The translations under genes and the position numbers were made by a program. This document shows positions 4,248-33,591 of a DNA stretch of 53,808 nt, piece by piece. Source of the DNA: Oscillospiraceae bacterium (lineage in GTDB: Bacteria; Bacillota; Clostridia; Oscillospirales; Oscillospiraceae); NCBI GenBank assembly GCA_015067765.1, contig SVLV01000009.1, forward strand, positions 1 through 53,808. Direction: 5' to 3'. Numbering within the stretch: the stretch's first letter is position 1; the number at the start of each line of letters is the position of its first letter. The notes beneath the pieces were generated by a model. That model was not told the origin of the DNA, did no database searches, and was given only the letters and a program-made list of their open reading frames with translations.

Positions 4248-4281
4248 CATCCGGCAGACCTTGTCTGCCGGATGCTTTTTT
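4248..4281 (+). terminator. terminator of the PAP2 gene
   Basis: Perfect 12-bp stem, CATCCGGCAGAC (4248-4259) with GTCTGCCGGATG (4263-4274), a 3-nt loop and a T-run. Confidence 0.93.
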
Positions 4282-4368
4282 GCTGAAATTGTCCCATTTC
4301 CTCACCATTTCAAGAAAAAACTGTCATTTTTGCAGGGGAATCTTGAATGCATTTCGGCAAGATGCCTA

Positions 4369-4397
4369 TGGACTTCCCAAGAAAGCTGTCATATAAT
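4369..4397 (+). promoter_or_regulatory. promoter of the cys leader-cysK-cysE operon
   Basis: TGGACT (4369-4374), 17 bp, then TATAAT (4392-4397). Transcription should begin near 4404, giving a leader of about 230 nt before cysK. The word CTGTCAT occurs at 4321-4327 and again at 4386-4392, flanking the promoter. Confidence 0.7.
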
Positions 4398-4425
4398 AGA
4401 AATAATCATTTTAAGGAGAATGCGT

Positions 4426-4521
4426 ATGAAAGGCTTTGTCTGCGTCATGACCTGTCGGGCCGCCTGTTGGATGGCCTGCTGTTGTTGTGCCCAAAACTGT
4501 CATGCGCTTTCTGCCTGTTGA
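4426..4521 (+). CDS. cysteine-rich leader peptide (31 residues, 9 Cys)
   Basis: A short frame encodes a 31-residue peptide with cysteines at positions 6, 10, 14, 18, 19, 20, 21, 25 and 31. Four are consecutive codons (4477-4488). GGAG (4415-4418) sits 7 nt before the ATG at 4426, better placed than the ATG at 4420. It ends 113 bp before cysK and is followed by an intrinsic-terminator-like hairpin. This is the layout of an amino-acid attenuator, in which ribosome stalling at cysteine codons reports low Cys-tRNA. Polycysteine leaders regulating sulfur operons are known in mycobacteria; Clostridia normally use Cys T-boxes or CymR instead. I found no T-box here. That it is translated is inference from the ribosome site and its composition. 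Confidence 0.75.
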   Translation: MKGFVCVMTCRAACWMACCCCAQNCHALSAC

Positions 4522-4559
4522 GTCGATGGAAGTTTTCTCTTCCTGCGGATTGTCTGTTT

Positions 4560-4601
4560 GCAGCAGAGGGCGTATGCAGCCCCTCTGCTGCTTTGTATGT
4601 T
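4560..4601 (+). terminator. attenuator-type hairpin between cys leader peptide and cysK
   Basis: GCAGCAGAGGG (4560-4570) and CCCTCTGCTGC (4581-4591) form an 11-bp perfect stem with a 10-nt loop, followed by TTTGTATGTT. The 5' arm can pair instead with the end of the leader frame, CCTGTTG at 4514-4520 (seven pairs including one U-G, with one bulge), a possible antiterminator. A third option pairs it with CTGCTG inside the Cys codon run (4476-4481). A ribosome stalled on the Cys run would leave 4514-4520 free; one reaching the stop at 4519-4521 would cover it. Confidence 0.65.
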
Positions 4602-4634
4602 CCGGGATTTCCCCCGCGAGAAAGGATGCTGATC

Positions 4635-5564
4635 ATGAATGTGTATACTTCCCTCAGCCAGCTGGTAGGCGGTACGCCTCTGCTGGATCTGCAGCGTTAC
4701 AGTGAAAAGAACGGATTGTCTGCCAGGCTGCTGGCCAAGCTGGAAAGCTTCAACCCCGCCGGCTCCGCCAAGGATAGAGTCGCCCTGCAGATGATTGAAT
4801 TGGCCGAAGAACAGGGCCTTCTGCAGCCCGGTGGAACCATCATCGAGCCCACCTCCGGCAACACTGGTATTGGTCTGGCCGCTATGGCCATCGCCCGTGG
4901 CTATCGTGTGGTGCTGACCATGCCCGATTCCATGAGCGCCGAGCGTCGTGCTCTGCTGGCCGCTTACGGCGCCCAGTTGGTGCTGACCGACGGCAGCCTC
5001 GGCATGGCCGGCTGCATTGAAAAGGCCAACGAGCTGGCCCGCAGCACCCCCAACAGTTTTGTGGCCGGCCAGTTTGAGAATCCCGCCAATCCTCAGGCAC
5101 ATTACCGCACCACCGGCCCGGAGATCTGGACCGATACGGATGGGCAGGTAGATGTCTTTGTGGCTGGTGTGGGTACCGGTGGCACCTTGTCCGGCACCGG
5201 CCGGTATCTGAAGGAGCAGAATCCCAATGTGCGCATCATCGCTGTGGAGCCCGCCTCCTCCCCCCTGCTCAGCGGCGGTCAGGCGGGCCCGCACGGTCTG
5301 CAGGGCATCGGCGCAAACTTCATTCCGAAGAATCTGGACCGCAGCCTGATTGATGAGGTAATTCCCGTAAAGGAAGAGGACGCCTATGCTGCCGGCCGCC
5401 AGTTGGCCGCTACGGAAGGCGTACTGGCCGGCATCACCTCCGGCGCAGCCCTGTGGGCTGCCGCACAGCTGGCCCGCAGACCGGAATATGCCGGCAAGAA
5501 CATCGTGGTCCTGCTGCCGGATACTGGTGACCGTTACCTGTCCACTCCCCTATTTGCAGATTGA
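4635..5564 (+). CDS. cysK: cysteine synthase A (O-acetylserine sulfhydrylase)
   Basis: The 309-residue PLP enzyme makes cysteine from O-acetylserine and sulfide. Family marks in order: the PLP lysine in NPAGSAKDRV, the substrate-carboxylate loop PTSGNTGIG, the phosphate-binding GTGGTLSGTG loop and the late SGAAL segment. Length is normal. Start 4635 has GAAAGGA 8 nt upstream; an ATG at 4626 overlaps that site. The frame stays open far upstream into the leader, but that part has no protein-like character. cysE follows 10 bp later, so donor-making and sulfide-fixing steps are coupled. Control is probably by the Cys leader/attenuator. Confidence 0.95.
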   Translation: MNVYTSLSQLVGGTPLLDLQRYSEKNGLSARLLAKLESFNPAGSAKDRVALQMIELAEEQGLLQPGGTIIEPTSGNTGIGLAAMAIARGYRVVLTMPDSMSAERRALLAAYGAQLVLTDGSLGMAGCIEKANELARSTPNSFVAGQFENPANPQAHYRTTGPEIWTDTDGQVDVFVAGVGTGGTLSGTGRYLKEQNPNVRIIAVEPASSPLLSGGQAGPHGLQGIGANFIPKNLDRSLIDEVIPVKEEDAYAAGRQLAATEGVLAGITSGAALWAAAQLARRPEYAGKNIVVLLPDTGDRYLSTPLFAD

Positions 5565-5574
5565 GAGGTGCACT

Positions 5575-6435
5575 ATGTATAACGAGCATATTCAAAAAGC
5601 CGCCCGGGAGATGTCCCGGAACTTCGACCAGTGCGTCGTCCCCCTGTACGGCAGCCAGCTGCGTCTGCCTGACCGCCGTGCGGTCATCCGCCTGCTCAAG
5701 GACATCCGCAAGCTGATGTTCCCCGCCTATTTTGGTGATGTGGAACTGATGACGCTGGATGCAGAGAGCTACTGCGCGCTGCTGCTGGAGCGCATCGAAA
5801 GTGCACTGGCCCGTCAGATCGCACTGGCTCTCCCGGAATCGGAAGCACAGCGCGCTGCAGATACTGCCCGGGAACTGGTGGAAAAGCTTCCTCAGATCCA
5901 GTTGATGCTGCAGCATGATTTGGACGCCACCTTTGACGGCGACCCCGCTGCCGGCTCCAAGGAGGAGATCATCTTCGCCTATCCCGGTCTGTTTGCCATC
6001 TTTGTCTATCGCATTGCCCACGAGCTGTACCTGCAGAAGGTGCCGCTGATCCCCCGCATCATGAGTGAGTATGCCCACAGCCGCACCGGCATTGACATCA
6101 ACCCCGGCGCCACCATCGGCTCCCACTTCTTCATCGACCACGGCACCGGCATCGTAGTGGGCGAGACCACCATCATCGGCGAGCGCGTGAAACTGTATCA
6201 GGGCGTCACACTGGGCGCACTGTCCCCCCGCGGCGGCCACAGTTCCATGCCCGGCAAGCGCCATCCCACGGTGGAGGACGGCGTGACCATCTATTCCGGC
6301 GCCTCCATTCTGGGTGGGGAAACCGTCATCGGCGCCAACACCGTAGTGGGCGGCAACGCCTTTTTGACCAATTCCGTAGACCGTGATACCCGCGTAGTCA
6401 TCAAGGGACCGGAGACCACTTTCAAAAACACCTAA
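5575..6435 (+). CDS. cysE: serine O-acetyltransferase
   Basis: The 286-residue enzyme transfers acetyl from acetyl-CoA to serine, giving O-acetylserine for CysK. An N-terminal helical domain of about 170 residues, longer than in the short Bacillus type, precedes a left-handed beta helix of hexapeptide repeats (GIDINPGATIGSHFFIDH, then GIVVGETTIIGERVKLYQGV), with the catalytic His-Asp region at the GSHFFIDHGTG turn. The C-terminal tail is short and lacks the final Ile of the classical CysK-binding tail. GAGAGG at 5563-5568 serves the ATG. It lies between cysK and a transporter in one operon. Confidence 0.93.
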   Translation: MYNEHIQKAAREMSRNFDQCVVPLYGSQLRLPDRRAVIRLLKDIRKLMFPAYFGDVELMTLDAESYCALLLERIESALARQIALALPESEAQRAADTARELVEKLPQIQLMLQHDLDATFDGDPAAGSKEEIIFAYPGLFAIFVYRIAHELYLQKVPLIPRIMSEYAHSRTGIDINPGATIGSHFFIDHGTGIVVGETTIIGERVKLYQGVTLGALSPRGGHSSMPGKRHPTVEDGVTIYSGASILGGETVIGANTVVGGNAFLTNSVDRDTRVVIKGPETTFKNT

Positions 6436-6450
6436 GGAGAATCTGTACTT

Positions 6451-7767
6451 ATGAATCAAAAACCTGCTACCAAACCCATTGCCCTGCTGCCCATCGGCGT
6501 TTTTCTGGTGCTGTATCTGGGCTTGGGTATCGTATTTGAATATGTGCTGAAAATCGAGATGGGCTTTTACAAGATCCCCATCGTCGTAGCCTTCCTGGCC
6601 TCCCTGCTGGTGGCCTGCCTGCAGAACAAGGCGGTCTCCTTTGAGGAGAAACTGGATCTGATGGCCAAGGGCGTAGGCGACAAAAACATCATGACCATGA
6701 TCCTGATCTTTTTGGTGGCCGGTCTGTTTGTCGGTGTCACCGGCCGCTCCAGCGCTGAGGCTGCCGCCTATTTCCTGCTGTCCATTGCACCGGCGCAGAT
6801 GGCCGTAGCTGTCCTGTTTGTGGTATCCTGCTTCATCTCAGTTGCCATGGGCACCAGCGTGGGCACCATCACTCTCATTACCCCCATTGCTGCAGCAGTT
6901 GCCGACACCTCCGGTTTTTCTCTGCCTCTGGTGATCGCTTCGGTCATTGGCGGTGCTATGTTTGGCGACAATCTGTCCTTCATTTCCGACACCACTATTG
7001 CTGCCTGCAGCACCCAGGGCTGCGAAATGAAGGATAAGTTCCGGGCCAACTTCAAGATCGCCCTGCCTGCTGCGCTGGCTACGCTGGTGCTGATCCTGGT
7101 GCTCTCCATGCAGCAGGATGTCACCGCCGGCAATTATCAGGTGGATAACCTGCTTCTGCTGATCCCCTATCTGCTGGTGCTGGTGGGCGGCATTATCGGC
7201 CTGAATGTGTTTGTTGTGCTTCTGGTTGGTATTCTCTCCGGTGCAGTCATTTCTCTGGCCACCGGCCAGATGACCGCCATGGATCTGCTGGCCGGCATGG
7301 GTGCCGGCGTAAACGGTATGTTTGAGACCATTCTGGTCACCATTCTGGTGTCCGCTCTGTGCGGTCTGATCCGCGCCTACGGCGGTTTTGAGGCACTTCT
7401 GTCTGCCATCCGCCGTCTGTTCCGCGGCAAGCAGGGCGGCCAGCTGGGCATCGGCCTGTTGGTGGGCCTGATGGATATCGCTACCGCCAACAACACGGTA
7501 GCCATTGTTATGGCCGGTCCCATCGCCAAGGAGGTCAGTGAGGAATATGGCATCACCGCCAAGAACTCCGCCTCTCTGTTGGACACTTTCTCCTGCATCT
7601 TCCAGGGCATCATCCCCTATGGTGCTCAAATGCTGGTGGCCATCTCCACCTGCTCCACGCTGGGCTTTACGGTCTCCTCTTTTGAGGTGATCCCCTTGCT
7701 GTTCTATCCCTTCCTGCTGGCACTTTCCAGTCTGCTGTTTATTGCTTTTGACAAGAAAAACGCCTGA
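6451..7767 (+). CDS. NhaC-family antiporter-type transporter in the cys operon
   Basis: This 438-residue protein has about eleven hydrophobic segments and the NhaC-type repeat features, including MGTSVGTITLITPIA near residue 130, FGDNLSFISDTTIAA, and a second-half ATANNTVAIVMAGPIA segment. NhaC proteins are usually named Na+/H+ antiporters, but the family also contains amino-acid carriers; MetT-like members move methionine. Placement 15 bp after cysE, behind a Cys leader, points to uptake of cysteine, cystine or a related sulfur compound. That is inference from context. AAGGAG lies 11 nt before the ATG. Confidence 0.82.
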   Translation: MNQKPATKPIALLPIGVFLVLYLGLGIVFEYVLKIEMGFYKIPIVVAFLASLLVACLQNKAVSFEEKLDLMAKGVGDKNIMTMILIFLVAGLFVGVTGRSSAEAAAYFLLSIAPAQMAVAVLFVVSCFISVAMGTSVGTITLITPIAAAVADTSGFSLPLVIASVIGGAMFGDNLSFISDTTIAACSTQGCEMKDKFRANFKIALPAALATLVLILVLSMQQDVTAGNYQVDNLLLLIPYLLVLVGGIIGLNVFVVLLVGILSGAVISLATGQMTAMDLLAGMGAGVNGMFETILVTILVSALCGLIRAYGGFEALLSAIRRLFRGKQGGQLGIGLLVGLMDIATANNTVAIVMAGPIAKEVSEEYGITAKNSASLLDTFSCIFQGIIPYGAQMLVAISTCSTLGFTVSSFEVIPLLFYPFLLALSSLLFIAFDKKNA

Positions 7768-30130: not shown

Positions 30131-30198
30131 CGGCATTCACCCCTTCCCTCCACTCTATGCGGCCGCCTCCACAGGATAGAACGCCGCCGATTCTACAG

Positions 30199-30237
30199 AA
30201 AAGAGCCGCGCGTCTGGTATAGACGCGCGGCTCTTTT
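30199..30237 (-). terminator. strong terminator after grdB
   Basis: AAAAGAGCCGCGCGTCT (30199-30215) and its complement (30221-30237) form a perfect 17-bp stem with a 5-nt loop and a T-run in the grd direction. It separates the glycine reductase module from yqfD. Confidence 0.95.
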
Positions 30238-30258
30238 GTCAGTTGAAGGAAATTTTGA

Positions 30259-31560
30259 TCAATTTTCGAATACCGTCTGATCCTCCACCTCCGTGCACAG
30301 AGCACGCAGGGCAGCCTGCACCAGCTTCTTGCGCAGGGCATATTCCTCCTCAGCAGGCAGGGCGGGATTGCCCAGAGGATGAGGGATCGCCACCGTGGGC
30401 AGAATCCGGTTTGCGCCAACTGTCAGGGAAATGGGGGTAACCGTACACATGTGGACCACAGGGATCCCAACACGCTCAATCTCTTTGACCATCGTTGCAC
30501 CGCAACGCGTGCAGGTCCCTCAGGTACTGGTCATGATCACCGCATCTACCCCTGCAGAAAGCAGCCTCTGGGCATACTCAGCGGCAAATCCTTTGGCCGA
30601 GGCCACAGCCGTTCCATTGCCGACCGTAGCATAGTAGTAGTCATGCAGCTTTCCAATCACTCCGGTGCGCTCCATTTCACGAAGCACATCCACCGGCAGA
30701 ACACGGTTGGGGTCCTGATTGGCATAGACGGGATCATAGCCACCGTGGGCCGTTTCATAGGTCTGACTGGTCAGACGGTCTACACCGGCAATGTTATATT
30801 CCCCGTAGCGGGATGCAGAGGAGGATTCAATATGATCGGGATTTCCCTTGGGCACAATGCCGCCGGAAGTGCACAAGGCCACAGTTGCCTTGCTCAGATC
30901 ACGGATGGCAGGGCTGGGTTCCACCCGGTCAAAGGAGGGCATCGGATACTCTGTGACAAAGGGCTGCCCGGCCAGCTTTGCCTTCAGCATCTCCACAGCC
31001 CGTTTGGCACCGCGTTCCCGATCAAAGAAGTTGACACGCACGCCGTTATTCAGGTAACCATCCTCGCAGGAGGCGCCCAGTTTTTCGCCCCGCAGGAGCT
31101 TCAGCGCCAGCTTCGCCATGGTGGGAACTGCTTTGCGCATGCCGGCGGCGCTGTTGGCGGTAGCGGCGATCAGCACCTTGGTCCTCAGATCCGCACCGGG
31201 GTTTTCCTCGTACATACCCGTCAGGACAGGAATGCCCATATCCTGCACCGCAGCGCAGATGGTGGCGCAGGCATAACCATAGCGGCCGGCATTGAAGGCA
31301 GGACCAGCCAGAAACAGATCCGGTTTCTCCTCCGCCACCCAGGCAAGGATGGCTTCTTTTGCTTCTTTCTCATGCTCGGCAAAGTAGGAATCGCCGCAGA
31401 CGACAGTGGACACGATCTGCGCCTCGTCCTTCCATGCCTGTGCAAACGCCATGCCGGGACCCACCACGCCCTGGCGCAGCTGGGGTTCCACATGGGCCAT
31501 TTCTTCGCCGCCGATATTGGCAAAGAACTGGTTGATATAATGCATCACACGATAGCTCAT
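30259..31560 (-). CDS. grdB: glycine/betaine/sarcosine reductase component B, selenoprotein gamma subunit (GrdB type)
   Basis: Component B binds the substrate amine through a pyruvoyl group and passes a carboxymethyl group to selenoprotein A. The frame is interrupted by one TGA at 30522-30520. Reading it as selenocysteine gives 433 residues, the normal GrdB length, with Sec at 347 in the family motif VIMTST-U-GTCTRCG. The part after TGA (KEIERVGIPVVHMCTVTPISL ... PHPLGNPAL) is fully conserved-looking, so this is not a pseudogene. The start MSYRVMHYINQFFANIGGEE is the family start, with AAAGGAG 7 nt upstream. Which substrate form (glycine GrdB, sarcosine GrdF, betaine GrdH) is not fixed by sequence; the glycine riboswitch favours glycine. 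Confidence 0.93.
30488..30522 (-). promoter_or_regulatory. candidate SECIS hairpin following the Sec codon of grdB
   Basis: Downstream of the TGA (30522-30520), TGCAC (30513-30509) pairs with GTGCA (30500-30496) around the 8-nt loop GCGTTGCG, and ACC (30516-30514) can pair with GGT (30490-30488). Bacterial SECIS elements lie at this position, within the coding region just after UGA, to recruit SelB. Confidence 0.6.
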
Positions 31561-33381: not shown

Positions 33382-33540
33382 GTAACCTGAGAGATTCCCT
33401 GCCCGCAGCAGGTTGCTCCTTCGGCGCTTACGCTTTTCCAGAGATCTGTCCGTTTTCGGTCCTTTGGCCTGAGATCTTCACAGCCTGTCTGACACACAGG
33501 CTGTTTATTCCTTCGGCTTTGCCTGACGGCAAATCTCCCG
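33372..33540 (-). promoter_or_regulatory. tandem glycine riboswitch
   Basis: Two consecutive aptamers are visible on the minus strand. Aptamer 1 (33540 to about 33446) has GGGAGAT, GCCGAAGGA (33517-33509), CTCAGG (33473-33468) and AAAGGAC. Aptamer 2 (about 33446 to 33372) has GATCTCT, GCCGAAGGA (33425-33417), CTCTCAGG and the AGAACAGGG end. These are the conserved parts of the glycine (gcvT) riboswitch. In the known systems glycine binding turns expression on by preventing a terminator. Here it would switch on glycine reductase when glycine is plentiful. Confidence 0.9.
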
Positions 33541-33591
33541 AAAACTTCATCCAGCATATATTATTTCGTCTGTTAGACTTCTTTATACCCT

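Follow-up and report, generated by a model that had tools for sequence, protein, structure and literature searches.

Leader-peptide attenuators and the control of sulfur amino acids

Attenuators of the trp, his and leu type, which act through a leader peptide, are classical systems of the Proteobacteria, and Firmicutes typically control their sulfur amino-acid genes by means of T-boxes, SAM riboswitches and the regulator CymR. The proteobacterial attenuators, as summarised in PMC9413887, consist of a short open reading frame (ORF) led by a Shine-Dalgarno site, runs of cognate codons, an antiterminator and an intrinsic terminator before the first gene. Within Firmicutes, there are descriptions of a Leu-rich leader-peptide attenuator of the ilv genes of S. 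aureus, with mutants (PMC5794164), as well as of His leaders in Bacilli, called the first outside Proteobacteria and Actinobacteria (PMC2965389), and in three Firmicute lineages including Peptostreptococcaceae (PMC9413887); taken together, the His leaders occur in Bacilli, Erysipelotrichales and, among Clostridia, Peptostreptococcaceae. For cysteine, the literature includes Cys-run leaders predicted in Actinobacteria without clear intrinsic terminators (PMC1262725), polycysteine work in mycobacteria (cited in PMC13236596), and uORFC-8-2 before cysS of Rhodobacterales, a predicted ribosome-mediated attenuator with tandem Cys codons and a terminator (PMC8632094).

The window analysed here is a stretch of 53,808 nucleotides from the genome of a gut clostridium, an Oscillospiraceae bacterium (1.54 Mb, 58 contigs, 79% complete). 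Ahead of cysK and cysE it carries a short Cys-rich frame that very probably acts as a ribosome-mediated transcription attenuator of the trp/his type. The locus resembles the trp, his and leu systems in all the parts named above and differs from them in using Cys and Met codons rather than Trp, His or Leu; their protector lies in the control-codon region, whereas a possible strand 1 is formed here by the start-codon region of the leader. With the S. aureus Leu and the Firmicute His leaders it shares ribosome-mediated attenuation in a Firmicute but neither the amino acids nor the genes. uORFC-8-2 differs in belonging to Alphaproteobacteria, in preceding cysS and not cysK-cysE, and in having two conserved Cys codons.

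The mycobacterial polycysteine leader ORFs, those of Canestrari 2020, are reportedly leaderless. They resemble the window leader in placing a Cys-run ORF ahead of cysteine genes, and differ from it in being leaderless and, according to the earlier prediction (PMC1262725), without clear terminators, whereas the window ORF has both a Shine-Dalgarno site and a terminator. The mycobacterial leaderless type does not fit the window leader, which has a Shine-Dalgarno site at 4413-4418 and a promoter-like site upstream. The initial annotation had raised the prospect of a route undescribed in Firmicutes; leader-peptide attenuation is already known there, but its use for Cys and Met was not found in print. 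Specifically, no Cys or Met leader-peptide attenuator in Firmicutes was recognised in the open-access literature searched, and a narrow literature search found no described Met attenuator. The mechanism is known, and the specificities and the host group are new as far as the literature was searched.

The leader frame and the genes behind it

The leader frame translates as MKGFVCVMTCRAACWMACCCCAQNCHALSAC. A scan of both strands of the window found no other frame of 20-45 codons with at least nine Cys, and its run of four TGY codons occurs once in the window, in agreement with the initial annotation, which had placed a 31-codon frame with nine Cys, four of them adjacent, before cysK. Another ATG, at 4420, is also in frame with the leader but lies overly near the Shine-Dalgarno site. 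The same annotation spoke of a good promoter; a promoter-like site is indeed present at 4369-4397, but "good" amounts to a consensus match, and since 0.6 such sites are expected by chance in the 501 bases scanned, the site is weak evidence. The RNA from 4369 to 4660 folds with a z of -3.4. An 11-codon frame without Shine-Dalgarno site, MFRDFPREKGC (4597-4632), ends in Cys-stop 2 nt 5' of the cysK start and is probably due to chance.

Table 1. Coordinates of the leader, its signals and the genes behind it in the window, with the loci bearing CGA frames
Feature	Location	Strand	Basis or remarks
Sigma-70-like promoter, TGGACT-17-TATAAT	4369-4397	+	consensus match only, 10/12 positions
Shine-Dalgarno AAGGAG of leader	4413-4418	+	sequence; 7 nt 5' of ATG
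Strand 1, start-codon region GCGTATGA, complementary to 4500-4507; possible 1:2 protector	4422-4429	+	proposed
Leader peptide ORF	4426-4521	+	31 codons and TGA; 9 Cys = 7 TGT, 2 TGC
Control codons 18-21, Cys x4 (TGY x4)	4477-4488	+	sequence; switch calculation
Strand 2, leader 3' end CATGCGCTTTCTGC, antiterminator 5' strand	4501-4514	+	pairing, duplex test
Terminator: hairpin 4560-4591 (strand 4 = 4581-4591) and weak T tract 4592-4601	4560-4601	+	fold
Strand 3, GCAGAGGGCGTATG, common to antiterminator and terminator (5' arm and loop)	4563-4576	+	pairing, duplex test
cysK, cysteine synthase A	4635-5564	+	TIGR01139 442.4 bits, cut-off 350.95
cysE/epsC-like serine O-acetyltransferase	5575-6435	+	NF041874 156.9 bits, cut-off 150; TIGR01172 161.9, below cut-off 210.65
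NhaC-superfamily transporter, possible operon member	6451-7767	+	TIGR00931 84.1 bits, far below cut-off 370
CGA-TGT frames upstream of cysK	L012, L019, L022, L031, L033, L034, L038, L041, L051, L054, L057, L095		
CGA-ATG frames upstream of metQ	L186-L200 except L187		

Codon choice separates leaders from genes. Cys is encoded by TGT 46 times and by TGC 40 times in the cysK leaders, against 4 TGT and 23 TGC in the cysK genes behind them; eleven genes of the window have 9 TGT and 41 TGC. An NhaC-like gene lies 3' of cysE in 9 of 15 other cysK-cysE loci as well, and from this context the transporter is perhaps a carrier of cysteine or of a precursor.

Elsewhere in the window, on the minus strand, a selenoprotein frame (30193-31560) has an in-frame TGA within VMTSTUGTC; its product we take to be glycine/betaine-reductase-like. 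A SECIS_4 match (30482-30519) falls within this frame, and a glycine riboswitch (33447-33550) lies upstream of it.

Terminator, antiterminator and the predicted switch

The hairpin at 4560-4591 has 11 outer pairs and a folding energy of -23.1 kcal/mol. It had been credited with a T-rich tail; the hairpin is borne out, but the tail, TTTGTATGTT, is weak. The 5' arm of the hairpin can pair instead with the end of the leader, as had been proposed, although the partner is 4501-4514 and not 4514-4520, and the resulting pairing, 14 unbroken base pairs between 4501-4514 and 4563-4576, is stronger than the one first put forward. This antiterminator duplex reaches -25.4 kcal/mol against -23.1 for the terminator; 300 shuffled versions of the leader end gave no duplex as good.

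The mechanism suggested by these elements follows the trp/his scheme. A translating ribosome would follow RNA polymerase along the leader. If Cys-tRNA runs short, this ribosome would stall in the CCCC run (codons 18-21), leaving 4501-4514 free to pair with 4563-4576; the terminator would be blocked, and cysK-cysE, perhaps with the NhaC-like gene, would be transcribed. With Cys-tRNA plentiful, the ribosome would reach the stop codon and cover 4501-4514, the hairpin 4560-4591 would form, and transcription would end near 4600. The cue is probably charged tRNA-Cys, and tRNA-Met too.

The proposal that a stalled ribosome frees the leader end and a ribosome at the stop codon covers it held in a folding calculation, in which the ribosome footprint was masked and the transcript folded to 4578, i.e., before the 3' arm of the terminator. 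The antiterminator forms with a probability of 0.97 as long as the ribosomal A site lies on codons 18-21; this falls to 0.006 with the A site at codon 24 and to 0 from codon 25 to the stop, so that the border of the switch is located just 3' of the CCCC run. Setting the leading edge of the footprint anywhere from +10 to +15 moves this border by about one codon. In the transcript extended to its full length, to 4600, the terminator prevails in all ribosome states tried, and the choice would therefore have to be kinetic. Under equilibrium folding of the ribosome-free RNA, the antiterminator ranges from 0.03 to 0.9 with the transcript end. In 8 of 9 loci, pairing between the start region and strand 2 scores a z of -2.6 or lower, and the ribosome-free outcome hangs on the transcript end.

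Spacing was compared across loci. The last adjacent Cys pair lies 13-18 nt from strand 2 in 7 of 9 loci and 31 nt from it in the other two (L014, L015); a distance of 13-18 nt is roughly what a stalled ribosome covers.

cysK-cysE leaders in related genomes

Loci of cysK were sampled from 29 of 32 genomes of the genus (E 1e-60) and from 58 of 60 relatives (E 0.001). In 16 loci (L001, L003-L017) cysE follows cysK directly, with a gap of 14-20 nt, and a Cys/Met-rich leader precedes 15 of them, as exemplified by L011 (MTRFTMAGSMCMDMMCIMPCCCRVRTGHTFSAA) and L006 (MNRFAMNNMVMCMPMCMCMCCCAQFCHAFSADGIGA). The sixteenth, L012, has its leader cut by the contig end and retains a terminator-like hairpin. 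At L040 cysE also lies behind cysK, but the gene start is absent; at L018 cysE is 191 bases further on and the leader is of a different kind, ending RVCFAIPICLS. This second kind recurs in two Oscillospiraceae MAGs, L051 and L057, where the fetched stretch (about 460 bases downstream for L057) gave no cysE match.

Among the 22 other cysK loci (L002, L019-L039), no cysE match was found and none has a leader of this type by the criterion used. Three of them say little, since L002 and L038 offer 251 and 2 bases downstream, respectively, and L039 is a partial gene match; the exceptions in the group are a long unrelated-looking frame at L021 and a 13-codon CCCC frame at L023. Upstream of the stand-alone cysK genes (L002, L019, L028 and others), inverted repeats near the promoter, resembling repressor operators, were seen by eye, such as ATAGGTTTATAGG...CCTATAAACCTA at L002 and CCAACCTACCGAGTTGGTAG at L019.

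Pairing of strands 2 and 3 persists despite differing sequence in eight leaders that end HTFSA, HAFSA, PAFSA or HTAS, the window leader itself ending HALSA. In L011, for instance, strand 2 GTCATACGTTTTCTGCC pairs with GGCAGAGGGTGTATGAC, and in L017 TCACACAGCTTCT pairs with AGGAGCGTGTGA, one base being bulged; in L005 the pairing is divided between Cys codons and leader end. In the RNA made before strand 4, the 5' arm of the terminator is paired to leader sequence in all 10 loci drawn, the partner being strand 2 in 8, partly so in L005, and another stretch in L004. In a duplex test of the leader end against the 5' arm of the terminator, ten of 16 cysK leaders did better than chance (z < -1.5), the others being L003, L007-L010 and L018; for L007-L010, a fold using bases 3' of the stop codon is likelier. 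L003 also has Leu-Ser in place of the Cys-Cys of its near relative L004 in an otherwise similar peptide, either a real loss or an assembly error.

In alignment A4, whose seven rows exclude leaders of another sequence type as well as L016 and L017 (misregistered by MAFFT in A3), antiterminator pairs fill 96.2% of cells, compared with 31-66% when the strands are slid. Two-sided changes affect 1 of 15 antiterminator pairs in A4, most variation being one-sided, and the covariation score was reached by 114 of 500 column shuffles and is not significant; for the terminator, 2 of 12 pairs change on both sides and the score, reached by 6 of 500 shuffles, is significant. When the switch calculation was applied to seven relatives, 2:3 pairing was higher with the ribosome stalled than at the stop in five (L005, L006, L011, L013, L016), at 0.56-0.98 against 0-0.03. 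Placing the ribosome on the chosen Cys codon brings 2:3 pairing to only 0.01 in L014 and 0.03 in L017. In L005 and L011, 2:3 pairing already stands at 0.52 and 0.98 with no ribosome on the RNA. Several relatives satisfy the structural tests only in part.

Comparison with related leaders had been named as one way to check the proposal. Cys and Met codons, the Shine-Dalgarno site and the terminator are kept while other residues drift, but two-sided covariation is sparse; conservation of Cys codons, which had been predicted, is seen across relatives, although the family signal is Cys and Met rather than Cys alone. The trp-type layout for cysteine is supported by the relatives and by the exclusive pairing. 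Sequence and comparison support the frame, its Shine-Dalgarno site, the terminator, the exclusive pairing, the spacing and a codon bias of the family that matches the operon; from these we infer translation, stalling, termination and tRNA charging as the cue.

Leaders of methionine genes

The same architecture was sought elsewhere with a covariance model (R1) and two leader profiles (A5, A6). R1 matched 40 of 250 genomes at E 0.01 and returned 30 loci; inspection of 15 found a real leader in six (L135, L136, L137, L139, L143, L151), and the other nine were rejected as lone hairpins or coding sequence. A5 matched 23 of 300 genomes at E 0.05; the 20 rows inspected comprise 8 real leaders and 12 chance matches, the three remaining rows being the window and two known congeners. 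A search of the order with A6 matched 8 of 394 genomes at E 0.001; two were known, and the six new loci all hold a real leader.

By these searches, similar leaders were located before metQ, metY-like and cysE-like genes in further genera and in two more families. The name metQ rests on the L183 protein, which resembles NF008285 and TIGR00363 below their cut-offs, and on likeness to L183 for the other loci; metY-like is based on a protein fragment, and cysE-like (L136, L139) on resemblance to the window gene, since the fragment has no NCBIfam match. In the genus, 15 of 32 genomes have a metQ match, with a Met-rich leader upstream in all 15 (for example L187, MKRNVTMMMCEMCMGMMSMCMFRRAEKVISFPKTV); the window's own genome, at 79% completeness, gave no metQ match. 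L201 and L204, from another family of the order, have a leader rich in Met and Cys ahead of a metY-like gene (O-acetylhomoserine sulfhydrylase); this leader is followed by a frame with CGA-ATG (Arg-Met).

The ratio Cys/(Cys+Met) is 0.38-0.82 in 16 cysK leaders and 0-0.38 in 22 metQ leaders, with p 2.4e-7 computed over related rows, or p 2e-4 with one leader per cluster (9 against 11). This comparison of 38 leaders is confined to those before cysK and metQ, with start codons picked by hand; it omits the cysE-like loci L136 and L139, metY loci L201 and L204, and metQ loci L203 and L205-L207, and counts once each of the identical pairs L183/L186 and L176/L202. The leader codon content tracks the operon. 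Met codons also occur in the cysK leaders, where a pure Cys sensor would have no need of them, and prevail ahead of Met genes; joint sensing of the sulfur amino acids by the family is therefore probable. An SD-like motif precedes all 38 leaders, some motifs being 4 bases only. Three of the 22 metQ leaders passed the duplex test (z < -1.5); many have instead a shorter CTTTCC:GGAAAG complementarity, noted by eye.

Competing explanations

The family-wide data also bear on other accounts of the window leader. In one, it works like the polycysteine attenuators of mycobacteria, and the effect of the stalled ribosome would be exerted by way of Rho or of the accessibility of the cysK start site, not by way of an intrinsic terminator. 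The weak T tract of the window fits such a device, as do the Cys-codon runs that stand before actinobacterial cys operons without a clear terminator (PMC1262725). Nevertheless, each of the 38 leaders is followed by a hairpin with 5 T or more among the 8 bases after it, and the 3' end of the window leader is complementary to the 5' arm of its hairpin; this account is improbable.

Marginally less probable still is that the frame encodes a functional Cys/Met-rich peptide, binding thiols or metals, and that the hairpin is merely a terminator internal to the operon. Recurrent CxC and MxM patterns in relatives would agree with this, but the peptide drifts outside its Cys and Met positions, the balance of Cys to Met goes with the gene downstream, and RNA pairing engages the leader end in the window as well as in eight relatives. 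None of 10 leaders scanned had a Pfam or NCBIfam match, and a known peptide family was rejected on this ground.

Control of the operon by a tRNA- or metabolite-binding riboswitch (T-box, SAM), with the frame incidental, is very unlikely. T-boxes occur in 32 of 32 congeneric genomes, with 12 matches (E 0.001) in the window's own genome, but Rfam has no match at positions 4300-4700, with E allowed as high as 1, and tRNA and tmRNA genes were all that two scans, each of 20 related loci, brought up. With no T-box or other Rfam family at the leader, leader peptides appear to occupy the place where a T-box, a SAM riboswitch or a CymR site would be expected. Chance, with a Cys-rich frame that means nothing next to the ordinary terminator of the upstream unit, has just as little to recommend it: frames of 20-45 codons are common (544 on one strand and 619 on the other, counted per start codon), but only 0.025 as Cys-rich as the leader are expected per shuffled window (40 first-order shuffles), frame and context are conserved in the genus, and a terminator-like site at 4248-4274 already belongs to the upstream gene, so that chance is excluded for the window frame.

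A second short frame with CGA before the cognate codon

Besides the ribosome-mediated attenuator favoured here, many relatives have a further SD-led ORF nearer the gene than the Cys/Met leader. At metQ loci, 12 of 13 non-redundant cases contain CGA-ATG in this second ORF. At cysK loci, SD-led frames with CGA-TGT occur in 12 of 109 non-redundant cases, a count that includes L005, where the motif lies inside the Cys leader, but neither L012, whose frame is too long, nor the redundant L057; the runner-up among the codons that follow CGA is found in 2. The hexamer CGATGT is present in 17 of 109 cysK upstream regions against 4.95 expected. CGA is itself rare: of 131 Arg codons counted over ten genes of the window, 3 are CGA, and of 28 in metQ genes, none is. 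Several of the CGA frames terminate in Arg-Cys-stop.

Both frame types occur together in L051, L057 and 14 of 15 congeneric metQ loci; L012 has a CGA frame and the terminator of a first leader that is itself cut by the contig end. The window has no CGA-TGT frame between leader and cysK. A tentative reading, given somewhat less than an even chance, is that sulfur amino-acid genes of this clostridial order carry two tiers of leader ORFs, a Cys/Met attenuator and then a CGA-cognate ORF nearer the gene. Perhaps the CGA ORF brings about an arrest that requires both a slow CGA codon and an undercharged cognate tRNA, and it may represent a further sensor class. A narrow literature search found no description of a CGA-cognate sensor; if the reading is true, the second tier would be a sensor of a kind for which no description was found.

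Implications

Control of cysteine synthesis and methionine uptake by leader peptides seems to operate inside a genus rich in T-boxes. Methionine would join the list of amino acids sensed by attenuators. The leaders of the Cys-synthesis and Met-uptake genes favour Cys or Met codons in keeping with the operon behind them, and would provide a natural series for studying how the specificity of an attenuator changes.
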